DNA from: Microbacterium sp. SSM24
GTDB lineage: Bacteria > Actinomycetota > Actinomycetes > Actinomycetales > Microbacteriaceae
DNA length: 64,000 nucleotides
Assembly (NCBI RefSeq): GCF_025989145.1
Contig: NZ_JAPDNQ010000002.1
Coordinates: 62,001 to 126,000 of the forward strand
Reading direction: 5' to 3'
The translations under genes and the position numbers were made by a program. The notes under the pieces are model-generated. The model ran no database searches, was not told the origin of the DNA, and saw only the letters and a list, made by a program, of their open reading frames with translations. The first letter of the stretch is position 1. Every line of letters begins with the position of its first letter. This document shows positions 12,557 through 33,554 of this stretch, one piece after another.

Positions 12557-15500
12557 TCAGCGTCGGACGCCCTTCGCGGGGGTCGCCTGGAACGCCTTCT
12601 CGATCGTCTGCGAGAACGTGTTGCCCGCGGCATCCTTCGCGGTCACGCGCAGGTCGACCCAGCCGCCCTTGTCCGACACCGGGATCTGCGCCGAGAAGCC
12701 GCGGACCCACGCACGGGACGGGACGAAGATGTCGCCGGAGCCATCGACGGCGCCGGTGGGGGCATCCGTCTTCGCGTTCTTCAGGCTGATCTTCTTCCAG
12801 TGACCGCCGGCGGTGCGCGCTTCGAGCGTCGCCGTCGTGATCGCGCCGGCCGGTACCGTACCGGCGACGTGACCCACTTCCAGACCCAGCGTGATGCCGG
12901 AGCCCTTCTTTCGGCCCTCGCCCACCTTGTTCTGCGCGTTGACGTCGACGTCGTAGTACGCGGTCATCATCGGCAGCAGCCGGGGGGACCAGTCTCCGAG
13001 CTTTCCGGACGAGCGGAACGTCCAGTCGGTGACGGTCTTCGTCGACCCCGCGAGGTGCGAGCCGTCGTGGGTCGCGGTGCTCACCACGCGCCACAGCTGG
13101 TTCTCGCCGTCGGGCAGCTCGTACACGTTCGCGCCCTGGTGCTCACGCTGCGCGATCAGCTTTCCGTCGATGTAGATGTCGGTCAGCTGCTTCACAGTCG
13201 ACGGCTCGCCCCACGTCTCGAACGTGCCGGTGCGGTCGCCGTTGCCGCCGTCCGCCCAGCTCGGCACGTTGATCTGCGCGTAGTCCGACTGGCGGTAGGG
13301 CACCCAGAAGCCGACGCCGAGGTTCGGGCGCACGATGCCGCCGAAGTACTCCGCGCTCGTGCGCTTGCCCGCCTTGTAGGTGCGCAGCTTGTCGCGCATC
13401 TCCCACATCACCGAGCTCACGCCCACCCACTGGTTCCAGCGGATGCCGTCGGTGTTGATCCACTCCTCGCGGTCCATGCCGCGCTGGGTGCGGAACGGGA
13501 TGCCGTTGCCATAGGTCGCGCCCGGGACGAAGTCATACCGGAACTCGCCGAGCTCCTCCTTCTGACCGTGGAACCGCGTGTCGATGCGCGCGAGGTCCTT
13601 CGGCTTGAAAGCGAGGACGGCCGGGATCTTCCCGTCCGCGTACTCGGCGATGTCGTACAGCACGTCGCTGTTGGCCGTGCCCACCGCCGTGATCGTCACC
13701 TTCGTGCGTGCGAGGTCGGCGAGGAGCTTCTTGCCCTGCACCCCGCTGATGCCGGCGACCGGGATCGGCGCAGGCTTCTCGTAGTCCGCGGAGCCGACCC
13801 ACTCGTTGAACTCGCCGTCGGCGTCGTTCACCACGATGAGGAGCTTCGCACCGGCGGCGACCGCGTTGGCCGTGCGCTCGGATGCCGGCACCTCGGCGGA
13901 TCGGGTCACCACGGCGACCTTGCCCTTGACGTTCACCTTCGCGAAGTCGGCCGCGCTGCCGAGCCCGGCGACGACTGCCGCAGAATTCAGCTTCAGGTCC
14001 GTGAACGTGCCGCCGATCTGCTCGATGAGGTCGAGCGGGTTCTTGCCGGCGGTCACCGCGAGGAGCGGCTTCTGCAGGCGCCAGCGCGCGGTGAAGCCGA
14101 AGTCGGCGTCGTCGACGACCATCGGCACGGCCCACATCTCGTCGTTCCACACCGGGGCGATGACGCTCGAGAAGAAGTCGTCCACCTTCACGTCCATGCG
14201 GGTGAACGCCGACGTGAGTCCCCTGCGCTTCACGTCGACCGTGACCTGCTTCGCCTTGCTCGCGTCGAGCGTGACGGTGCGGTTCTGGTCGAGGGTGATC
14301 GTCGGCTCACCGGTGAGCACGGTGGCGATCGTGTCGGGGGTGCGGTTGAGCTCCATGTAGGACATGACTGTGTAGTCGCCCTTCATGAGGCGCAGCGTCG
14401 TCTCGCCGTCGACGTAGACGGGCTCGGCGAACTGGGCGGCAGGGTTCCACAGCACCGCGTAGGTGGAGGTGGGGCTGCCCGTGAAGTCCTTCGCTGCGAT
14501 CGTGAGGTCGTAGCGCTCGGCCTCGGCGATCGTGCCGAGGGCCGTGCGCGTGACCGCCGTGCCGTCGACCGAGCCGACCAGCATGCCCGACAGCTGCGTG
14601 CCGGCGGGGACCTTCGAGGGGTCGACCGTCATCGTGACCGACGCCGTGGCTCCGGCGGCGATCGTCAGCGAGTCCGCGTCGAGGGTGAGCGCATCGAACG
14701 CGATGCCGGCCGACATCGGTCCCGCGCCGCCCGCGCCCGGCGTGGTGTCAAGGAGGGTTGCCTCCAGTGCCACGGTGATCTCGGCATCCGTCCGGTTGGT
14801 GAACGCGACCGCGCGCTCGACCGGGGTCGGCTCCTCGCCCCACGTCAGCATGCCGAAATCACCGGAGCCGTCGGCCACGACGGGTGCCTCGAGGGCCGCG
14901 TCGACGTCGATGACGCCGGTGCCGCCCTGATAAGCGGTGTAGCCCACGTCGGTCGCCGTGCTGGCGAGGGCGGCCTTCAGCTGGTCGGTCGTGTAGTCGG
15001 GGTTCGCCCCGAGGAGGATCGCGGCGGCTCCGGCGACGTGCGGCGTCGCCATCGACGTGCCGCTCATCGAGACGTAGGCGCCTTCGCCGCCGCTGTCGGA
15101 CGAGCGTGCGGCGGTGACGTCCATGCCGGGTCCGGTGACGTCGGGCTTGAGCGCGCCCGAACGCGACAGCGGTCCCTGGCTGGTGAAGTACGACAGCTCG
15201 CCGGACGGGTCGTCGACAGAGCCGACGGTGAACGCCTCGACGGCCGAGCCGGGAGCTCCGATCGTCTCGGGGGCGCCGTTGTTGCCGGCGGCGACGACGA
15301 AGAGCGCGCCGGTCTCCTCGGCGATCGCGTTGAGCGACTCCGCCATCAGGTCCTTGCCGTCGGAGGCTTCCATGGAGCCGAGGCTCATGGACACGATCGG
15401 GGCGTTCTGGCCCGCCCACTCCATCGCCTCGATGATCCACGAGTCCTGGCCGGAGCCGTCGGCGCCGAGCACCTTGCCGACGAGCAGCTGCGCGCCGTCG

Positions 15501-16393
15501 GCGACGCCGCGGTGGGTGCCGCCGCTCGCGGCGCCCGTGCCGGCGATGGTGGACGCGACGTGCGTTCCGTGGCCGTTCGCGTCGACGTCGACCTCTTCGT
15601 CGGGCACGAAGCTCTTGGAGCTTGCGAGCACGCGGCCCTGCAGGTCGGGGTGGGTGTCGTCATAGCCGGTGTCGAGGACGGCGACGGTGACGCCCTCACC
15701 GGTGTAGCCGTCGGCCCAGGCCTCGGGGGCGTCGATGTAGTCGGTGCTCGAATCGAGCGTCGCGCGCACCTTGCCGTCGAGGTGGATGGCTTCGATGCCG
15801 CCCGCGAGGCTCGGGGTCGCCGAGAAGGTGCTCGCGCCCTGCGCGGTGAGCGACTGCCACGCCGAGGCGGCGTCGTCGTGCCCGAGAGTCGCGGCGGCCG
15901 CGTCGATGCTCTCGAGCTCGGTCTGCACATCGAGGCCGGGCACCGGTGCGGAGAATGTCTGCGCCGAGGACTGCTCGACGATGATCGGCGTGGCGTCGAC
16001 GGATGCGTCGTCGTAGCCGTACTCGATGAGGCGCGAGACGTTGAAGAGGTCCTGGTCGAGGACCCCGGCCGCAAGGAACGGCATCGCCGCGTCGGGGATC
16101 ACGCGCAGCTCGTCACCGAACTCGTAGGTGCGCACACCGGCTCCGGCGACGGCGGTGTCGACCTGGACGGTGTGCACCCCCTCGGGGAGGTCGCTGACCG
16201 TGACGCGATCGCCGGTGATCAGGGTGACGGTGTGAGAACTGCCGGCAGCCGCGCGAGGGGCGGGGGGACCGTCGACGGACTGTGCGGCCGCCGGCAGGGT
16301 GGTGAGGCCGATACCGGCGATTCCGATCGCCAGACCGCTTGTGGCGGCGACGACCGAACGCAGGCGGTGACCTGTGGAGTGGGGACGGGGCAT
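12557..16393 (-). CDS. Secreted subtilisin-family (S8) serine protease
   Basis: The 1278-aa protein starts with a Sec signal peptide (basic N-terminus, hydrophobic core, cut near LPAAAQS) and a prodomain. The catalytic triad is clear: Asp in VTVAVLDTGYDDTHPDL, His in NGHGTHVAST and Ser in SGTSMATPHVAGAAA. A PA-type insert (AGAKLLIVVNDADGEF) lies in the second half, followed by a long beta-rich C-terminal region without a cell-wall anchor. Such streptomycete-type subtilases are released to digest extracellular protein. It is transcribed away from a two-HTH regulator, with an inverted repeat in the shared promoter that suggests direct control by that regulator. Confidence 0.95.
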   Translation of the reverse strand: MPRPHSTGHRLRSVVAATSGLAIGIAGIGLTTLPAAAQSVDGPPAPRAAAGSSHTVTLITGDRVTVSDLPEGVHTVQVDTAVAGAGVRTYEFGDELRVIPDAAMPFLAAGVLDQDLFNVSRLIEYGYDDASVDATPIIVEQSSAQTFSAPVPGLDVQTELESIDAAAATLGHDDAASAWQSLTAQGASTFSATPSLAGGIEAIHLDGKVRATLDSSTDYIDAPEAWADGYTGEGVTVAVLDTGYDDTHPDLQGRVLASSKSFVPDEEVDVDANGHGTHVASTIAGTGAASGGTHRGVADGAQLLVGKVLGADGSGQDSWIIEAMEWAGQNAPIVSMSLGSMEASDGKDLMAESLNAIAEETGALFVVAAGNNGAPETIGAPGSAVEAFTVGSVDDPSGELSYFTSQGPLSRSGALKPDVTGPGMDVTAARSSDSGGEGAYVSMSGTSMATPHVAGAAAILLGANPDYTTDQLKAALASTATDVGYTAYQGGTGVIDVDAALEAPVVADGSGDFGMLTWGEEPTPVERAVAFTNRTDAEITVALEATLLDTTPGAGGAGPMSAGIAFDALTLDADSLTIAAGATASVTMTVDPSKVPAGTQLSGMLVGSVDGTAVTRTALGTIAEAERYDLTIAAKDFTGSPTSTYAVLWNPAAQFAEPVYVDGETTLRLMKGDYTVMSYMELNRTPDTIATVLTGEPTITLDQNRTVTLDASKAKQVTVDVKRRGLTSAFTRMDVKVDDFFSSVIAPVWNDEMWAVPMVVDDADFGFTARWRLQKPLLAVTAGKNPLDLIEQIGGTFTDLKLNSAAVVAGLGSAADFAKVNVKGKVAVVTRSAEVPASERTANAVAAGAKLLIVVNDADGEFNEWVGSADYEKPAPIPVAGISGVQGKKLLADLARTKVTITAVGTANSDVLYDIAEYADGKIPAVLAFKPKDLARIDTRFHGQKEELGEFRYDFVPGATYGNGIPFRTQRGMDREEWINTDGIRWNQWVGVSSVMWEMRDKLRTYKAGKRTSAEYFGGIVRPNLGVGFWVPYRQSDYAQINVPSWADGGNGDRTGTFETWGEPSTVKQLTDIYIDGKLIAQREHQGANVYELPDGENQLWRVVSTATHDGSHLAGSTKTVTDWTFRSSGKLGDWSPRLLPMMTAYYDVDVNAQNKVGEGRKKGSGITLGLEVGHVAGTVPAGAITTATLEARTAGGHWKKISLKNAKTDAPTGAVDGSGDIFVPSRAWVRGFSAQIPVSDKGGWVDLRVTAKDAAGNTFSQTIEKAFQATPAKGVRR

Positions 16394-23833: not shown

Positions 23834-24127
23834 GTCGCCGACTCTACGGTGCGAAATGCGTTACCTGCACGCCGCGGGAGTGTGACGATCACGTAAACCG
23901 AACCTGGGAGGCCGCGACGCGGCCGACGCGCGGGGTCTGCAACTTTCGGGCCTCCGACCAGGGATTGATCGACAGCGTGTCCGCCAGAAGGCCGACAGAG
24001 CGCGCCCGTAAACGTTGCATGACAGTGCGGGCGTGTCGATTGCGAGGAGCGCCCCGATCGGCGTGGACTCGGAACAACGAACGGCCCCCGACGTGGTGGG
24101 TTCCCCCCACCACCCGGAAGGACCGCC
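23834..24127 (+). promoter_or_regulatory. Leader/promoter region of the exopolysaccharide operon
   Basis: This 294-bp gap holds no credible gene. A perfect 8-bp hairpin (GTGGTGGG / CCCACCAC, 24093-24113) sits 2 nt before the GGAAGGA ribosome site of the glycosyltransferase, where it could hinder ribosome entry. Further upstream GGAGGCC and GGCCTCC (about 23908 and 23949) are inverted copies that could form a larger stem. I do not recognise a known riboswitch class. Confidence 0.4.
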
Positions 24128-25696
24128 GTGTTCATCTTCCTGCTACAGGTCCGCCACATGCTCGGCGGCTATCCGGAGCTCTACCTGTTCGCCGTGTACT
24201 CGCTCCTGATCTGGGGCATGTGGCTGCTCAAGGTGCTTGTGAGCATGCGGTACCGGCCCTACACCGAGGCGCATCGCGCAGGGACCAGCGTCATCATCCC
24301 CGTCGTCGACGAGCCGCTCGATCTCTTCCGCGACGTGCTGCGCCGGATCACCGAGCAGCGGCCCGACGAGATCATCGTCGTCATCAACGGGGCGCGCAAC
24401 TTCGACCTCGAGGAGGTGTGCGCCGAGTTCGCGCCGGCCGTGCGCTGGGTGCACACGCCGATCGCCGGCAAACGCAACGCCGTCAAGGTCGGCGTGGAGA
24501 TGTCGCGCTACGAGATCTCGGTGCTGGTCGACTCCGACACGATCTGGATGCCGGACGCGCTCGACGAGCTCATCAAGCCGTTCAAGGACGAGCGCGTCGG
24601 AGGAGTCACCACTCGCCAGCGGATCCTCGAGCCGGAGCGCAGCTGGATCACGCGATGGGCGGACTGGCTCGAGAACACCCGCTCGCTCTACTCGATGCCT
24701 GCGCAGAGCGTCGTCGGCCAGGTGGGATGTCTCCCGGGGCGCACGATCGCGTTCCGCCGCAGCATCCTCGTCAGCGTCATGGACAAGTTCATGACTCAGA
24801 AGTTCATGGGCGTGTTCCTCGAGATCTCGGACGACCGCACCCTCACCAACCTCACCCTTCAGGAGGGCTATCGCACCGTCTATCAACACACGAGCCTCGT
24901 GTACACCGATGCGCCGCTGCAGCTCAAGAAGCTGTACAAGCAGCAGCTGCGCTGGGCGCGCGGCAGCCAGTACAACACGCTGCGGATGATGCCCTGGATG
25001 CTGGGTCATGCGCCGATGCTCGCGCTGTTCATGGTCATGGACATCGTGCTCCCCTTCCTCCTCGCCGGTGTGCTGCTCGGCTGGATCTACCGTGCGACCA
25101 TCGGTGCGGGCGAGAACTTCTACGCGGCGATCCTCCAGGAGTTCGGGATGGGTTCCGGCATCGCGTGGGTCATCGCCCTCATCGTCGTCTCGTCGGTGCT
25201 GAGCATGGCGATCCGTCAGCTGCGGCATCTCTCCGAGAAGCCGAGCGACTTCCTGCGGCTGCCCGTCTTCATCATCACCTCCACGATGTTCCTCATGCCG
25301 ATCCGGCTCATCGGGTTCTTCCGGATGGGGCACGCGAGCGGATGGGGAACCCGATCAGGCGCGTATGCGGGCGGGGACGCGCCGACCTCTGACGAGCAGC
25401 TGGAGCGAGGCGCCGCAGATCCCGAAAGCGAGCAGATGCACCGCGAGCTCGAAGACGCCCCCCGATTCGAGCCCGTCGATCGGATCTTCGACGAGGTGCC
25501 TCCGGCTGCGGATGCCGCGCCCAGTCGCATCGCCGTCGCCACCGCGACGTCGGTTCAGACGAGAGTGCAACGCCGGCAGCACGTCGCTGCGCATGCCCCC
25601 GATCGCCCGCAGCGCCGGCGGCTGAACCCGAAGGCGGCGTGGCCCTACGTCATCGGCGCCGCGATCATCGCCCTGGAGGTCTGGATCATTGTCTGA
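24128..25696 (+). CDS. Processive GT2 glycosyltransferase, hyaluronan-synthase-like
   Basis: The 522-aa membrane protein has an N-terminal helix (residues about 17-40), a GT2 domain (55-300), and three or four C-terminal helices (about 295-410). Substrate/metal motifs are in order: VDSDT (134-138), SDDRTLTN (234-241) with a following GYRTVYQHTSLVYTDAP, and KQQLRWARGS (271-280; QxxRW). The SDDRxLTN...TVYQ...TD.P...KQQ.RW run closely resembles class I hyaluronan synthases, so it probably makes and exports a beta-linked polysaccharide from UDP-sugars. The last about 110 residues are a cytoplasmic tail ending in a further helix. The start is GTG after GGAAGGA. Confidence 0.9.
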   Translation: MFIFLLQVRHMLGGYPELYLFAVYSLLIWGMWLLKVLVSMRYRPYTEAHRAGTSVIIPVVDEPLDLFRDVLRRITEQRPDEIIVVINGARNFDLEEVCAEFAPAVRWVHTPIAGKRNAVKVGVEMSRYEISVLVDSDTIWMPDALDELIKPFKDERVGGVTTRQRILEPERSWITRWADWLENTRSLYSMPAQSVVGQVGCLPGRTIAFRRSILVSVMDKFMTQKFMGVFLEISDDRTLTNLTLQEGYRTVYQHTSLVYTDAPLQLKKLYKQQLRWARGSQYNTLRMMPWMLGHAPMLALFMVMDIVLPFLLAGVLLGWIYRATIGAGENFYAAILQEFGMGSGIAWVIALIVVSSVLSMAIRQLRHLSEKPSDFLRLPVFIITSTMFLMPIRLIGFFRMGHASGWGTRSGAYAGGDAPTSDEQLERGAADPESEQMHRELEDAPRFEPVDRIFDEVPPAADAAPSRIAVATATSVQTRVQRRQHVAAHAPDRPQRRRLNPKAAWPYVIGAAIIALEVWIIV

Positions 25697-27104
25697 CGTC
25701 ACCCCCCGCACCTGGTGGGCCGCCAGCGGCCGCGCTTCGAAGCTGACCGCCCTCGGTGGAATCGTGCTCACGGTCGCCCTCGTCGCGACGAGTGCCGTCG
25801 TATGGGCATCACCCGGCGGTTTCACTCCCGGCCCGAGCGCCGAGGACCAGCTCGCCGCGGCCCTCGCGGAGAACAAGGCGCTGAAGGAAGACCTCGACGC
25901 CGCCGAGAGAGCGGGCGCTGCCCCGACGCCGACGCCGACGCGCACGCCCACCCCGACGCCTACGCCGAAGCCGACGCCGACACCGGGCGCGAAGACTGCT
26001 CCCGCACCCGAGCCGGGAACCAGGATCGTGACGGTCTACCGGTCGTCGCCCGAGGGTGGAGGCGAGCAAGCCGTCGATCCCGCTCCTGCGCCTTCGACGC
26101 CGCCGACATCGCCGGCGGTGACGGCACCCCCGATCGCGTCGATCGTCGCGCCGACGCAGCGCTACTTCGGGATGTACACCGCGCAGGCGCCCTTCAACTT
26201 CGCAACGTTCGACGACGCGGCGGTGAAGAGCGGCAGCCGGCAGTCGCTCGTCGGCTACTTCGGCGGGTGGGATCAGGCGTTCCGCGGCGACGCGGTGGTG
26301 CGCTCGTGGGAACGCGGCCTCCTGCCGATGCTCACGTGGGAGTCACGTCCGATCGCGGCGGCCAACGACGTGCCCGAGGATCCGGTCTACGCACTTCCCC
26401 GCATCCTCGACGGCGCCTTCGACGACTACCTGCGCACGTACGCGCGAGACATCGTCGCGACAGGCCTGCCTCTGGCGATCCGCCTCAACCACGAGATGAA
26501 CGGCACCTGGTATCCGTGGAACGAGCAGAAGACCAACGGATCGTCCAACAACGGCAACAGGACCGGCGACTACGTCGCCGTGTGGCGGCACGTGCACGAC
26601 ATCTTCGAGGCCGAAGGCGCGAACGCGTTCGTGATCTGGACGTGGGCGCCCAACATCATCAACAATCTGCCCGATCGTCACCAGACCCTCGAGTATCTGC
26701 GCTCGCTCTACCCGGGCGACGAGTACGTCGACCTCGTGGGTGTGTCGGGGTATCTTCGCCAGCCGTTCGTCGCGGCGAACGACTTCACTTTCGACTACAC
26801 ATTCGGAGCCACCCTCGACCAGTTGCGGGCTCTGACCGACAAACCGATCCTCTTGGCCGAGATCGCCGCGACCGAGAACGGTGGCAAGAAGGTCGCGTGG
26901 CTGAACAGCGTGTTCGCATCGCTCGGCGAGCCGGAGAACGCCGACATCATCGGCCTCGCCTGGTTCAACATCGCCGTCACCACCGTCAGCCAGGGTCAGC
27001 TCGTGACGAACGACTGGCGCATCGACTCGCGCGGCGCATCGCTCGCTGCCTTCCGTGCGGGTCTCGCATCGCCCGCAGCCAACTTCCGTTTCCTAGCTTA
27101 TTGA
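25689..27104 (+). CDS. Membrane-anchored glycoside hydrolase, GH26-like
   Basis: The 471-aa protein has one helix (residues about 20-41) that anchors it or acts as a signal, a short coiled coil (51-75), a threonine-proline spacer (PTPTPT repeats, 80-100), and a catalytic domain from about 155. RLNHEMNGTWYPW (265-277) with Glu269 is the acid/base motif of GH26, and ILLAEIAA with Glu391 fits the nucleophile strand. GH26 enzymes cut beta-mannans or related beta-glycans. It starts on TTG and overlaps the synthase gene by 8 nt, so it probably trims or releases the polymer made by that synthase, in the manner of other synthase-linked hydrolases. Confidence 0.85.
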   Translation: MSDVTPRTWWAASGRASKLTALGGIVLTVALVATSAVVWASPGGFTPGPSAEDQLAAALAENKALKEDLDAAERAGAAPTPTPTRTPTPTPTPKPTPTPGAKTAPAPEPGTRIVTVYRSSPEGGGEQAVDPAPAPSTPPTSPAVTAPPIASIVAPTQRYFGMYTAQAPFNFATFDDAAVKSGSRQSLVGYFGGWDQAFRGDAVVRSWERGLLPMLTWESRPIAAANDVPEDPVYALPRILDGAFDDYLRTYARDIVATGLPLAIRLNHEMNGTWYPWNEQKTNGSSNNGNRTGDYVAVWRHVHDIFEAEGANAFVIWTWAPNIINNLPDRHQTLEYLRSLYPGDEYVDLVGVSGYLRQPFVAANDFTFDYTFGATLDQLRALTDKPILLAEIAATENGGKKVAWLNSVFASLGEPENADIIGLAWFNIAVTTVSQGQLVTNDWRIDSRGASLAAFRAGLASPAANFRFLAY

Positions 27105-27139
27105 TTCGCCCCGCTCGGCCTTCAGAAGGAGAGAACCAC

Positions 27140-28549
27140 ATGTCCCCTCACCTGCGACCCGCTCCAGTCTCCACCGATGACGCCGCCCCGCTGCGTGTCA
27201 GCGTCATCGGCACCGGCTACCTCGGTGCCACCCATGCCGCCGCCGTCGCCGAGATGGGCTTCACCGTCATCGGCGTCGACCACGACCCCGCGAAGATCGC
27301 TGCCCTCGAGAAGGGCGAGGTGCCGTTCTTCGAACCGGGTCTCCCCGAGCTCATCCGCAGCCACGTCGAGACCGGCCGCCTGACCTTCACAACTGACCTC
27401 GCGGCGGCGGTCGCCGCATCGGACGTGCATTTCGTCTGCGTCGGCACGCCGCAGCAGGCATCCAGCCACGCCGCCGACCTGTCGTTCGTGGAAGGAGCGA
27501 CGCGCGCGGTTGCGGCGGCACTCACGCACGACGGGCTCATCGTCGGCAAGTCGACCGTCCCTGTGGGGACGGCTGCGCGGCTGAGGGAGATGGTGGATGC
27601 CGCCGCGCCGCCGCACGTTCACGTCGAACTGGTCTGGAACCCGGAGTTCCTGCGCGAAGGCTATGCGGTGGACGACACACTTCACCCCGACCGGATCGTC
27701 ATCGGGGGAGCTTCTGCGTGGGCAGAAGAGCAGCTTCGCACGCTTTACGGGCCCGCTGTCGCCGGCGGCGCGCCAGTTGTGACCTGTGACCTGCCGACGG
27801 CCGAGCTCGTCAAGGTGAGCGCGAACGCCTTCCTCGCGACGAAGATCTCGTTCATCAATGCGATCGCCGAGGTATGCGAGAAAGCGGGCGCGGACGTCTC
27901 TGTCCTCGCGGACGCGATCGGCTACGACGAGCGGATCGGTCGCCGCTTCCTCAACGCGGGGCTCGGGTTCGGTGGTGGGTGCCTTCCGAAGGACATTCGC
28001 GCCCTGACGCACCGTGCGGGCGAGCTGGGAGCCCTGCACGCCGTCGGTCTCATGCAGCAGGTCGATGAGATCAACATGTCTCAGCGGCAGCGTGTCGTCG
28101 AGCTGGCGATGTCGACCTGCCCCGTCAACATCCTCAACGCTCGCGTCGCTGTGCTCGGTGTCGCCTTCAAGCCCGACACCGACGATGTGCGCGACTCGCC
28201 CGCACTCAACGTGGCCGCTGCACTGCACCTTCGCGGTGCACTCGTGTCGGTCTACGACCCCGAGGCGAACTCCACGGCGAAGAGGTCCTTCCCGACCTTG
28301 ACGTACGCAGAGAGCCTCGACGCCGCCGTCACAGGTGCCGATCTCGTGCTGGTCCTGACCGAGTGGCCCGAGATCGCCGCCGCGGATCCCGTCTCGGTCG
28401 GGCGCCTCGTCGCACACCGGGCCGTCATCGACGCGCGTCGGTGCCTCGACGCGGATGCCTGGCGGGATGCCGGATGGCGATGTGTCACGCTCGGCAGCGC
28501 TGAGGGCGAGCAGCCCGTCTCGCCCGCACGTGCGAGGGCTGCAGCGTAG
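27140..28549 (+). CDS. ugd: UDP-glucose 6-dehydrogenase
   Basis: The 469-aa protein oxidises UDP-glucose twice to UDP-glucuronate using NAD+. An N-terminal Rossmann fold starts RVSVIGTGYLGATHAAAVAEMG. The central domain has VWNPEFLREGYAVDD, and the catalytic cysteine lies in LGFGGGCLPKDIRAL. The C-terminal NAD/UDP domain contains VAVLGVAFKPDTDDVRDSPA. I chose the ATG at 27140 because a strong AGAAGGAGAG site precedes it; the open frame further upstream shadows the GH26 gene. As third gene of the locus it supplies the uronic-acid donor, which matches a hyaluronan-like synthase. Confidence 0.95.
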   Translation: MSPHLRPAPVSTDDAAPLRVSVIGTGYLGATHAAAVAEMGFTVIGVDHDPAKIAALEKGEVPFFEPGLPELIRSHVETGRLTFTTDLAAAVAASDVHFVCVGTPQQASSHAADLSFVEGATRAVAAALTHDGLIVGKSTVPVGTAARLREMVDAAAPPHVHVELVWNPEFLREGYAVDDTLHPDRIVIGGASAWAEEQLRTLYGPAVAGGAPVVTCDLPTAELVKVSANAFLATKISFINAIAEVCEKAGADVSVLADAIGYDERIGRRFLNAGLGFGGGCLPKDIRALTHRAGELGALHAVGLMQQVDEINMSQRQRVVELAMSTCPVNILNARVAVLGVAFKPDTDDVRDSPALNVAAALHLRGALVSVYDPEANSTAKRSFPTLTYAESLDAAVTGADLVLVLTEWPEIAAADPVSVGRLVAHRAVIDARRCLDADAWRDAGWRCVTLGSAEGEQPVSPARARAAA

Positions 28550-30129: not shown

Positions 30130-31878
30130 TCAGTTGCTGCTCATCGTGACGTGAGAGTCGGGAGTCGTCGGGTCGTCGCTCGCGCGATCACGCCGGAGCT
30201 TGTGCTTGACCCGGTCGAACCAGTGCTCGGGCGCGGTGAGCGCGGTGACGGCGTCACGGTTCGTCGGGTACACCGACGCGCCGTCGTCGATGATGCCGAA
30301 CCGTCGGAGACGCGGCATCGCGCCCGACCTCACGCGGCTGAAGGCGATCTCGATCTTGTGCTGCGTGAGCCACGTGCGCAGGCCGTCGAAGGCTTCGGAC
30401 GCCGTGACGTCGACATCCGTGACCGCCTCCATGTCGATGACGACGTGATGCACGGTGCCCTCACCCGCCGAGGTCACCGCCTTGCGCACCGCCTCGGCGA
30501 AGACCGTGCCGTTAGCGAAGAAGAGCGGCGCCGCCATGCGCACCACGATCACGCCGGGCGCCGTCACCTCGCCTGCGGGTGCGGGGTCCAGCAGCGACGC
30601 GGTCGGGTTGTCGTTGCGGGCGAGCACATCGATCGCGGGACTGGACGCGCGCTTGGCGAGATTGACCAGCGCCAGCACGAAGGCGACGAGGATGCCCGGG
30701 ATCGACCCGATGAGCAACGTGACGAGGAAGCAGACGGCGCCGATCCAGAACTCGAACCGGTCGAGGCGCCACAGATCGATGAAGTCGCGGATGCCGAGAA
30801 GCGGCAGGATCGCGACGGCGACGATCGCGCCGATGGCGGGCGAGGGGATGTCGGCGAGCAGCGCAGTGCCGAACACCAGGAGAAGGAGCGAGCCGGCGGC
30901 GAGCACGAGCGAGGGCAGCTGGGTGCGGGAGCCCGCCTGGTCCATCGCCGCCGTCCGGCTGGTCGAGGATCCGACCGCGAAGCTCGCGGAGGCGCCGGCT
31001 GCCACGTTCGCGATCCCGAAGGCGAAGAGGTCGCGGTTCGGGCTCGTCGAGTACCGCCTCTTCTCGGCGTACGACCGCGCGACCAGGAGGCCCTCGGCGA
31101 CGGTGACCAAGGTGAGCGCGATCGCCGAGGGCACCAGTGCGAGCCATTCGGTCCACGAGATGACCGGCCAGGTCAGCGCGGGCGGGCCCGCGGGCACGTC
31201 GCCGAGGACGTCCACGCCGGCCTCGTCGGCGCCGGTGAAGACGACGACGACCGTCGCGAGGACGAGGACGACGAGAGCCCACGGCACGACCGGAAGGAAT
31301 CTCCTCCCGACGAGAAGGACAGTGACGGATGCCGAGGCGATCAGCATCGACCACGGGTTCGTCGTGCCCAGCCCCAGGATCAGCTGCGAGGACTTCTCGA
31401 CGAACTCCGCGCCGCTGTCGATCTTCACGCCGAGCATCTTGGCGATCTGCGAGACGAGGATGCCGAGCGCGAGCCCGCCGACGAATCCGACGAGTATCGG
31501 CTTGGAGAGGAAGTTGGCGAGGAACCCGAGCTTGAACACGGCGAGGAGCATGAACAGGATGCCGCTGATCACCGCCTGCGCCATCGCCAGCGTCGCGTAG
31601 TCTGCCGAGCCCGCCACCGCCAGGCCGCCGATCGACGACGCGACCAGGGCGGCGGCCGCGGCATCCGGAGACGCGACGAGCTGGCGAGAGGACACGACGA
31701 GCGCGTACAGCACGGTCGGGAGGATCAACGCGTACAAGCCGGCGGTCGCCGGAAGGCCGGCGATCTGCGCGTAGCCGATGTTCAGCGGGATCGCGATGGC
31801 CAGCAGCGTCACACCCGCGAGAAGCTCGCGGCCGACGTTTCGGCGAGTCAGACCGGCAAGGGGCTTCTGCACGTCCAC
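30130..31878 (-). CDS. SulP family anion transporter with STAS domain
   Basis: The 582-aa protein has 10-12 membrane helices (residues about 15-405) with SulP signatures: IAIPLNIGYAQIAGLPATAG near the N-terminus and AVGSSTSRTAAMDQAGSRTQ in the core. A cytoplasmic STAS domain follows (about 430-545; VVIDMEAVTDVDVTASEAFD). SulP proteins carry sulfate, bicarbonate or other anions; the substrate here is open. I chose GTG 31878 because the family N-terminus begins there and ACGGGA precedes it; a GTG two codons later is possible. The much longer upstream frame shadows other genes. Confidence 0.9.
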   Translation of the reverse strand: MDVQKPLAGLTRRNVGRELLAGVTLLAIAIPLNIGYAQIAGLPATAGLYALILPTVLYALVVSSRQLVASPDAAAAALVASSIGGLAVAGSADYATLAMAQAVISGILFMLLAVFKLGFLANFLSKPILVGFVGGLALGILVSQIAKMLGVKIDSGAEFVEKSSQLILGLGTTNPWSMLIASASVTVLLVGRRFLPVVPWALVVLVLATVVVVFTGADEAGVDVLGDVPAGPPALTWPVISWTEWLALVPSAIALTLVTVAEGLLVARSYAEKRRYSTSPNRDLFAFGIANVAAGASASFAVGSSTSRTAAMDQAGSRTQLPSLVLAAGSLLLLVFGTALLADIPSPAIGAIVAVAILPLLGIRDFIDLWRLDRFEFWIGAVCFLVTLLIGSIPGILVAFVLALVNLAKRASSPAIDVLARNDNPTASLLDPAPAGEVTAPGVIVVRMAAPLFFANGTVFAEAVRKAVTSAGEGTVHHVVIDMEAVTDVDVTASEAFDGLRTWLTQHKIEIAFSRVRSGAMPRLRRFGIIDDGASVYPTNRDAVTALTAPEHWFDRVKHKLRRDRASDDPTTPDSHVTMSSN

Positions 31879-31979
31879 TCCCGTCGAGTCGGCGTCGCAG
31901 GGCGGCGACGCCTCCACGCTAGCGGGGCGCGACTCGCGCGCGGCGCTTCCTCGATCGTGTCGCGGGATCGCCAGGCGTG

Positions 31980-32207
31980 TCAGAGAGCGACGCGCACCCG
32001 GCGTCCGTCGAAGCCGACGACGTCGCCGATCTGCAACTGGCGTCCGCGGCGACGATCGACCTCGCCGTTCACCGTCACGAGGCCGTCGATGATCGCCTCC
32101 TTCACGTCGCCGCCGGAGTCGAGGACACCGGCGAACTTCAGGAACTGGCCGAGGCGGATGCCGTCGCCGCCGATCGAGACGTCGTCGATCGGGGCGGGCT
32201 TCGTCAT
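31980..32207 (-). CDS. S4-domain RNA-binding protein (YbcJ-like)
   Basis: The 75-aa protein is a free-standing S4 fold: IRLGQFLKFAGVLDSGGDVK, then IIDGLVTVNGEVDRRRGRQL and a final strand VVGFDGRRVRV. Such small proteins bind structured RNA, probably rRNA or tRNA; the exact target is unknown. The start codon lies 6 nt after TAGCAT (32214-32219, minus strand), a leaderless -10 whose first three bases are also the stop codon of the upstream amine oxidase gene. Confidence 0.87.
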   Translation of the reverse strand: MTKPAPIDDVSIGGDGIRLGQFLKFAGVLDSGGDVKEAIIDGLVTVNGEVDRRRGRQLQIGDVVGFDGRRVRVAL

Positions 32208-32216
32208 GTATCGATG

Positions 32217-33554
32217 CTAGCCGCGCGCGAGCCCGGCCCAGGCATCCTCGATCGGCACATCCTGTCCGAGGACGTTGACCGCGGCGCGGTGGCCCGAGAA
32301 CATCGCTGCGGGCACCGTCGCCGGGTCGTCCGTCCACGTCGCCTCGCCGGCGAGGTGGAGCACCCCGCCGATCGGAGTGGCAAGGGTGTCGTGGTCCTCG
32401 GTCCGCGACCCCACGGTCATATAGGCGTAGGAGCCGTGCGAGAACGGGTCGTCCTGCCAGTCGGTGACGTGCACGTGCGTCGGCTTCGGCACGCGGTCCC
32501 CGTACAGGCGTCGCAGCTGCTCCAGCACCGACTCGACGATGCGCTCCTCCGACCAGTGGAGGGTCTCGACGGCAGCTGGACCGGCGGCGAACGTGAGCAG
32601 CGTGGGTTCGTCGTGCAGGGCGGTCAGGTCGTACCACGAGTGCCACCACCGCCCCTCGGGACCCTGCTGACGGATGACGTACACGTCCTCGTCCCAGAAC
32701 TTCGTGGAGAAGCGCAGGAAGACCTTCTCGAACGCGTTCATCGTGAAGCCCGCGAGCGCCCCGGCCACGGGCTCGGGAAGCGACGGTTCGATCAGGAAGT
32801 CGTCCGACTGCAGCACCCCCACCGGGACCGTCACGATCGCGGTATCGGCGCCGAACGAGCCGAAGTCGGTGTCGACGACGACACCCTCCGGCGACCACCG
32901 CACGCGCGACACCTCGTGCGTGAGCCGGATGTCGAGCCCTTCCGCCAGGCGCCGAGGGAGGATGTCGTATCCGTCGGGGAAGACGACCTCGTCGCCGTCG
33001 ATGGAGTCGTCGTCGAGGCCGTGCGCGGCGAGGTCGTCGATCCAGGCGCCGTACTGCTCCTCGGAGCGATGCTCGAGGTACTCCCGCACGCGCTGCGTCC
33101 GCTCCTCGTCCCACCCCTGCGCGGCCAGCGCCTCCTCGGTGACGTCGCGGTAGGAGGCATCCGGAGCAGACTCTGCCACCACGTCGCGAAGCGTCGCGTC
33201 GACCGTGTGGATGTCGGCGACATACCTCGCGGCCGCCTCGGCCGAGAGTCGCACGCCGTCCGGGCCGTAGTGAGCGATCGGGCGGCTGTCGGGCTGATAG
33301 CCCCCGACGGTGAACTCGATCGTGCGCATGCCCAACGCCTCCGCAGCCGCGGCGACCGGTGAATCGGTGACACCGTGGATCCACGACGCGCCCATGTCGG
33401 TCGCCCGTCCGAGCCTGTGGTCGGTCGAGACGCGTCCGCCGACGCGATCCCTCGCCTCGAGCACGAGAACCCTGCGCCCGTGTCTGGTCAGCAGCCGGGC
33501 GGCGGTGAGGCCGGAGACGCCGGCGCCCACCACGATCGTGTCGAATCTCTCCAT
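32217..33554 (-). CDS. Flavin monoamine oxidase family protein
   Basis: The 445-aa protein starts with a Rossmann FAD-binding motif (IVVGAGVSGLTAARLLTRHG) and the GG doublet RDRVGGRVSTD. The C-terminal FAD-contact motif is GGVLHLAGEATWTDDPATVP. This is the amine oxidase/polyamine oxidase layout, which oxidises amines to imines with release of H2O2. The substrate is not evident. The ATG at 33554 follows a GGAGG site; upstream extension shadows the next region. It precedes the S4 gene by 9 nt. Confidence 0.9.
   Translation of the reverse strand: MERFDTIVVGAGVSGLTAARLLTRHGRRVLVLEARDRVGGRVSTDHRLGRATDMGASWIHGVTDSPVAAAAEALGMRTIEFTVGGYQPDSRPIAHYGPDGVRLSAEAAARYVADIHTVDATLRDVVAESAPDASYRDVTEEALAAQGWDEERTQRVREYLEHRSEEQYGAWIDDLAAHGLDDDSIDGDEVVFPDGYDILPRRLAEGLDIRLTHEVSRVRWSPEGVVVDTDFGSFGADTAIVTVPVGVLQSDDFLIEPSLPEPVAGALAGFTMNAFEKVFLRFSTKFWDEDVYVIRQQGPEGRWWHSWYDLTALHDEPTLLTFAAGPAAVETLHWSEERIVESVLEQLRRLYGDRVPKPTHVHVTDWQDDPFSHGSYAYMTVGSRTEDHDTLATPIGGVLHLAGEATWTDDPATVPAAMFSGHRAAVNVLGQDVPIEDAWAGLARG

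Follow-up and report, generated by a model that had tools for sequence, protein, structure and literature searches.

The three-gene cassette

The window analyzed here is a stretch of 64,000 nucleotides from the 3.4-Mb genome of Microbacterium sp. SSM24 (contig NZ_JAPDNQ010000002.1, positions 62,001 to 126,000). Three genes are arranged on the plus strand at 24128-28549: a processive polysaccharide synthase of glycosyltransferase family 2 (GT2), a glycoside hydrolase of family 26 (GH26), and a UDP-glucose dehydrogenase (UGD), in that order. It is rather likely that they constitute a synthase-dependent exopolysaccharide unit, in which a polymer containing glucuronic acid (GlcA) is made by the GT2 and trimmed by the tethered GH26. 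Each part of the cassette is of a familiar type. Among the papers listed by targeted searches of mostly open-access literature, none described the combination or the synthase clade.

Each gene has a plausible start. The GT2 gene (24128..25696, 522 aa) begins with GTG, with GGAAGGA upstream. The GH26 gene (25689..27104, 471 aa) begins with TTG over the GT2 stop codon, and the UGD gene (27140..28549, 469 aa) begins with ATG, with GAAGGAGA upstream. These coordinates confirm the 8-nt overlap between the first two genes (25689..25696) that had been noticed in the original prediction; it is likely to represent translational coupling. The 294-bp intergenic region between a divergent SIMPL-family gene and GT2 (23834..24127, read on the plus strand) is the presumed promoter region.

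Conservation and distribution

Species genomes were scanned with a GT2 alignment, and the best 80 of 181 stretches encoding a relative were chosen by GT2 alone. The original prediction had proposed a survey for the three-gene order, and the order recurs: GH26 is next to GT2 in 78 of the 80 loci, and UGD is present as well in 72, with the same order and strand. In each of the eight loci short of a gene, the contig ends 0.4-2.8 kb beyond GT2. The association of the three genes is more than chance.

The GT2/GH26 junction was examined in 77 loci, and the start was assignable by a simple rule in 67 of them. The overlap is 8 nt in 55 and 14 or 17 nt in nine, and the remaining three have a 31-nt gap. 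With starts assigned likewise, a 4-nt overlap joins GH26 and UGD in 29 of the 60 loci that could be counted.

No further general neighbor of the cassette was found among the recurrent neighbors of the loci. The galU gene adjoins UGD in seven of the 72 loci, all from Leifsonia (positions were read for locus L036). In 46 of the 72 loci, glnA starts no more than 4 kb downstream of UGD, and in 49 glnE is upstream; this is a common chromosomal site for many cassettes. The window cassette is not at the glnA/glnE site, and one Curtobacterium cassette is carried by a 164-kb plasmid, indicating that the cassette has moved.

The cassette is common to many Microbacteriaceae and Cellulomonadaceae, and the closest named GT2 relatives belong to Microbacterium. 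One of the carriers is Microbacterium aoyamense DSM 19461 (L032). At E <= 1e-40, 62 of 299 genomes of the family contained GH26 of the cassette kind, with scores above 450 bits in 50. When 148 genomes of relatives were sampled, GT2 matches exceeded 200 bits in just three, one of which is the window's own genome, and eight of 297 genomes of the order had a GT2 match at E <= 1e-90. These low counts indicate a patchy distribution.

The GT2 synthase and its relation to hyaluronan synthases

The catalytic and gating motifs of class I hyaluronan synthases (HAS) are all present in the GT2 and invariant in 64 aligned rows, with Ser for Gly of GDD. They are the DxD metal/UDP site D135-S-D137 (24530..24538), aligned to D201/D203 of the chlorella-virus HAS (CvHAS); the general-base motif S234-D-D-R237 (24827..24838; GDDR in HAS); QQLRW for QxxRW at residues 272-276 (24941..24955); and the gating-loop motif WGTR at residues 406-409 (25343..25354), common to CvHAS W454-R457. 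The switch-loop equivalent, C201-L-P-G-R205 (24728..24742), is also invariant in the 64 rows and corresponds to C-V-G-G-P in CvHAS. A C-terminal transmembrane (TM) helix is predicted at residues 502-522 (25631..25693), after a long variable linker. The strings SDDRTLTN, TVYQHT, TDAP, and KQQLRW, on which the original prediction was based, were found at residues 234-241, 250-255, 260-263, and 271-276.

CvHAS residues are numbered as in the accessible parts of PMC12987647 and PMC11750622, corresponding to the chain index minus one. E93, K177, D201, D203, D301, D302, Q338, R341, W342, and W454-R457 are kept in the family, as are C267 and G270 beside the acceptor. Eight residues are changed in 10 of 10 family rows: Y91 (V), H174 (I or V), R256 (M), P271 (R), Y299 (I or V), G300 (S), S345 (G), and R348 (Y). 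Among them, R256, S345, and R348 are acceptor or substrate residues of HAS. Their replacements, M190, G279, and Y282, are invariant in the 64 rows, while two HAS-type and three NodC rows have R, S, and R. The equivalence of R348 is the least sure of the three, as a later alignment opens a gap beside Y282.

The strong profile matches in PDB were HAS only (1.9e-20 for Xenopus HAS1 and ~2e-18 for the chlorella-virus enzyme), and beyond them there was one weak GT2 match. In the fold comparison, based on an AlphaFold model of middling confidence, HAS was at the top, tied with another GT2. In the trees, the family forms its own clade, apart from HAS and NodC and joined to a group of synthases linked to beta-helix proteins, with support of 95/79 (32 rows) and 99/95 (27 rows). 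A grouping of the family with HAS was rejected by the approximately unbiased (AU) test, with p = 0.00875 for both HAS-type rows and p = 0.00204 for the HAS-like plasmid protein alone. The HAS-type rows in the trees were two only, a Xenopus fragment and this plasmid protein, and for the GT2 family and its sister group the tree program flagged a meeting of long branches.

Judged from its motifs, the GT2 works like a class I HAS, but membership in HAS is not supported. The description of the synthase as hyaluronan-synthase-like thus stands for the catalytic and gating motifs and the PDB matches, and fails for the clade and for the residues at R256, S345, and R348. Several homologues (P0003, P0026, P0034, and others) are named hyaluronan synthase by their sources (JGI, NCBI). 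The tree does not support this label, which is probably wrong.

The sister synthases (L114-L120) have GDDGRLTW or GDDGRMTW together with WLTR, and are encoded beside secreted right-handed beta-helix proteins. Five such proteins, from four of the seven loci, were scanned, and PF13229 was above its cut-off in four of them. UGD is within ~3 kb in two of the seven loci. Certain uronan lyases and epimerases also have a right-handed beta-helix fold. These loci are possibly another actinobacterial uronan system.

The GH26 hydrolase

The GH26 protein is predicted to be anchored by a single TM helix at residues 14-40 (25728..25808), followed by a stalk (25839..26078) composed of a coiled-coil-like helix at residues 51-76 and a low-confidence Thr/Pro-rich linker to about residue 130. 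The model agrees here with the anchor and stalk described originally. The catalytic domain is a (beta/alpha)8 barrel. In the alignment and the model, the acid/base is in His268-Glu269 (26490..26495), directly after beta-4, and the nucleophile is Glu391 (26859..26861) on beta-7. The original prediction had named two outcomes that would count against it. The GT2 is placed by the trees outside HAS, in its own clade, but the catalytic glutamates of the GH26 (E269 and E391) are not missing.

The protein is not closer to characterized beta-mannanases than to other GH26 enzymes. The best match both by sequence and by fold, and the nearest solved structure, is the lichenase CtLic26A (Clostridium thermocellum endoglucanase H). 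The two share the catalytic core, with HE and the nucleophile Glu, and also the DWR segment. Positions 357, 353, and 448 are changed: the window GH26 has Arg357, Asn441, Arg448, and Ser353 for Trp, a gap, Ser, and Asp in CtLic26A. It also differs in having a membrane anchor and a stalk and in being encoded beside a synthase. In the model, strand 6 (349-356) is followed directly by Arg357 (26757..26759), at the barrel's catalytic end.

Of the 93 GH26 sequences aligned, 77 have GT2 and UGD as neighbors; Arg357 and Asn441 occur in every one of these, and Arg448 in 75. Arg357 is also present in all six further GH26s beside GT2 on contigs ending before UGD. Trp357, as in CtLic26A, is present in eight orphan GH26s without GT2 or UGD within 4 kb (eight of 19 such weaker places). 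In two related cassettes with GT2 but no UGD in the 13-20 kb fetched, G150 and G092, position 357 is Val and Tyr, respectively. In a tree of 29 of the aligned rows, from which the column of position 357 was removed, the synthase-linked GH26s are clustered together (100/100), and G150 and G092 branch before the UGD-linked set (88/87).

The UDP-glucose dehydrogenase

The third gene had been called a UDP-glucose dehydrogenase, which was corroborated. It falls in TIGR03026, a subfamily of nucleotide-sugar dehydrogenases, with 425 bits against a cut-off of 190, and its nearest PDB entries are UGDs (327 bits), ahead of GDP-mannose dehydrogenase (190) and UDP-N-acetylmannosaminuronic acid dehydrogenase (146). 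The TuaD model scores 393 bits, under its 700-bit equivalog cut-off. The motif GGGCLPKD contains the catalytic Cys281, at 27980. Based on the UGD domains, the catalytic Cys, and this closeness to UGDs, the protein is identified as a UDP-glucose 6-dehydrogenase.

Comparison with known systems

Class I HAS operons (hasA-hasB) resemble the cassette in having a processive GT2 with DxD, DDR, QxxRW, and WGTR and an adjoining UGD. They differ in the synthase clade, in the loop (CVGGP or CISGP instead of CLPGR), and in the residues R256, S345, and R348; the long linker before a C-terminal TM helix and the operon-encoded GH26 distinguish the window cassette further.

In the cellulose operons, bcsZ, for an endo-acting enzyme, is located beside the synthase, between bcsB and bcsC. 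The algL gene of alginate systems likewise encodes an endo-acting enzyme beside the synthase. The window cassette is unlike these systems in its synthase clade, its GH family, and its Gram-positive host.

The type 3 capsule locus of Streptococcus pneumoniae is similar in that ugd and one processive synthase, wchE, are its two essential genes; the capsule is a GlcA/glucose (Glc) polymer of cellobiuronic acid units joined by beta-1,3 bonds (PMC3182177, in the parts available). The likeness is by description, WchE being unaligned, and these parts of PMC3182177 do not mention a hydrolase for the locus. In the actinobacterial exopolysaccharide locus wps-1 of Actinoplanes missouriensis, the GH26 gene wpsE is needed for normal sporangia (PMC13390465, in the parts available). 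By analogy, this suggests that such GH26s matter in polymer production, although the pathway is another: wps-1 is described there as predicted Wzx/Wzy-type with a predicted sulfated polymer, and not synthase-dependent.

Other pairings were also observed. In Rhizobium sp. CCGE532, a plasmid locus (L132) contains genes for UDP-glucuronate decarboxylase, galE, GT2, a UGD-type dehydrogenase, DUF995, a GH26-like hydrolase, and DUF995, in that order; it is apparently a separate GT2/UGD/GH26 pairing in an alphaproteobacterium. Plasmids of Lactococcus and Enterococcus faecium (L124 and L134) contain a two-gene set of nucleotide-sugar dehydrogenase and HAS-like GT2, with insertion sequences nearby. On a Deinococcus taeanensis plasmid (L131, 7613-9834), GT2 overlaps a lichenase-like GH26; GH16 lies upstream, and the stretch contains no UGD. 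It is a candidate locus for neutral mixed-linkage glucan.

Proposed function and alternatives

In the proposed mechanism, UGD would oxidize UDP-glucose to UDP-GlcA, and the membrane-embedded GT2, built like class I HAS but belonging to an actinobacterial clade of its own, would join GlcA and a second sugar, most likely Glc. The chain would leave through the TM channel of the GT2 itself, and the WGTR loop would act as the gate of the active site. The GH26 would sit at the outer face on its TM helix, coiled-coil-like helix, and Thr/Pro stalk. As an endo-acting, lichenase-like retaining hydrolase adapted to an acidic chain, it would cut the emerging polymer and thereby set its length or release it, similar to BcsZ on cellulose and AlgL on alginate. 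The analysis demonstrates the gene content, the conservation of order and overlap, the motifs, the position in the trees, the fold class, and the Arg357 signature, whereas the donor sugars, the linkage, the action of the GH26 on the product of its own cassette, and the physiological role are inferred.

Three points favor Glc as the partner: galU is linked in Leifsonia, the HAS acceptor residues are lost, and no GlcNAc (N-acetylglucosamine)-pathway gene appears among the recurrent neighbors shown, most of whose families are unnamed. The polymer is probably GlcA-containing and mixed beta-1,3/1,4-linked. A lichenase-like GH26 fits a chain with both bonds; the pneumococcal type 3 chain and hyaluronan (PMC10939387, in the part available) are such chains. 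The type 3 capsule and hyaluronan synthase make the pieces of the cassette plausible.

A more specific proposal is possible but doubtful: the product may be a previously undescribed uronoglucan of Gram-positive bacteria, with mixed beta-1,3/beta-1,4 linkage. It would resemble cellobiuronan and be the acidic counterpart of the mixed-linkage glucan of cereals. The GH26 would then be a uronate-adapted lichenase of new specificity, with Arg357 reading the carboxylate, which evolved when UGD joined an older GT2-GH26 pair. The GH26 tree and residue 357 hint at such a history, in which the groove gained an Arg that could read uronate. This clue is suggestive only, because the association of Arg357 with UGD is a single event on the tree, the GT2 active site is identical in the two cassettes without nearby UGD, and G092 has a UGD-type gene elsewhere.

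Several other points also weigh against the proposed mechanism. Nothing in the synthase reflects the linkage to UGD, given that its active site is unchanged where no UGD is nearby. The equivalents of K177 and R341 are found in NodC too, an enzyme not known to use GlcA, and are therefore no proof of a GlcA donor. The GT2 model has a mean pLDDT (predicted local distance difference test) of 69.6, and residues 186-203, reaching into the switch loop, are below 50. Nor would UDP-GlcA have to come from the cassette, since the window's genome has a second UGD-type gene (G000:C1:2240415-2241761, 55% identical, with one TGA within the matched range), and all 13 comparison genomes searched, including G092 but not G150, have at least one.

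Among the alternatives, the chain may contain GlcA with a different second sugar or be of one sugar, such as glucuronan, or the GH26 may remodel or degrade an unrelated external glycan. The position of the sister synthases beside right-handed beta-helix proteins would favor it, but the close coupling of the GT2 and GH26 genes by an 8-nt overlap and the separation of synthase-linked from orphan GH26s argue for a cognate product, and this alternative is considered unlikely.

It is improbable that the polymer is hyaluronan (GlcNAc/GlcA) from a divergent HAS, with the GH26 as an unusual hyaluronan-trimming enzyme. The PDB and fold matches, the kept SDDR, QxxRW, and WGTR motifs with the G270 and C267 equivalents, a HasB-type partner in UGD, and the sampling of just two HAS-type rows would allow it. 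The AU rejections, the lack of a GlcNAc-pathway gene among the recurrent neighbors shown (mostly of unnamed families), and the galU linkage, though usable for any UDP-GlcA polymer, are against it.

A neutral mixed-linkage beta-glucan, with UGD serving another polymer and the GH26 an ordinary lichenase, would agree with CtLic26A as the nearest solved GH26, the two cassettes without nearby UGD, and the Deinococcus taeanensis locus, but has little likelihood given UGD in third place in 72 of 80 loci with the rest cut short by contig ends, the departure of the UGD-linked GH26 clade from CtLic26A at Arg357, Asn441, and Arg448, and WGTR in the window GT2, mixed-linkage glucan being made by another GT2 type, RiGT2, with an FxVTxK loop (PMC10374906).

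If the GlcA-polymer unit is real, three genes of a small cassette encode a whole acidic-polysaccharide machine common to many members of the Microbacteriaceae and Cellulomonadaceae. Some databases now label its synthase a hyaluronan synthase. Lacking both an outer membrane and Wzx/Wzy parts, the system would be a simple one in which to ask how chain length or release is set by a cognate hydrolase. The specificity of GH26 would extend beyond mannanase, xylanase, and lichenase, the activities given in the GH26 tree paper, and the enzyme would be a possible tool for acidic glycans. If the uronoglucan proposal holds, the members of the GT2 family in Microbacteriaceae and Cellulomonadaceae that are labeled hyaluronan synthase would be part of this uronoglucan system.

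Neighboring genes in the window

Upstream of the cassette are ftsX, smpB, and the divergent SIMPL-family gene. On the minus strand, the window also encodes a large subtilase of 1277 aa with a PA domain by Pfam (12560-16390) and a SulP-type sulfate permease of 695 aa with a STAS domain (30133-32217).
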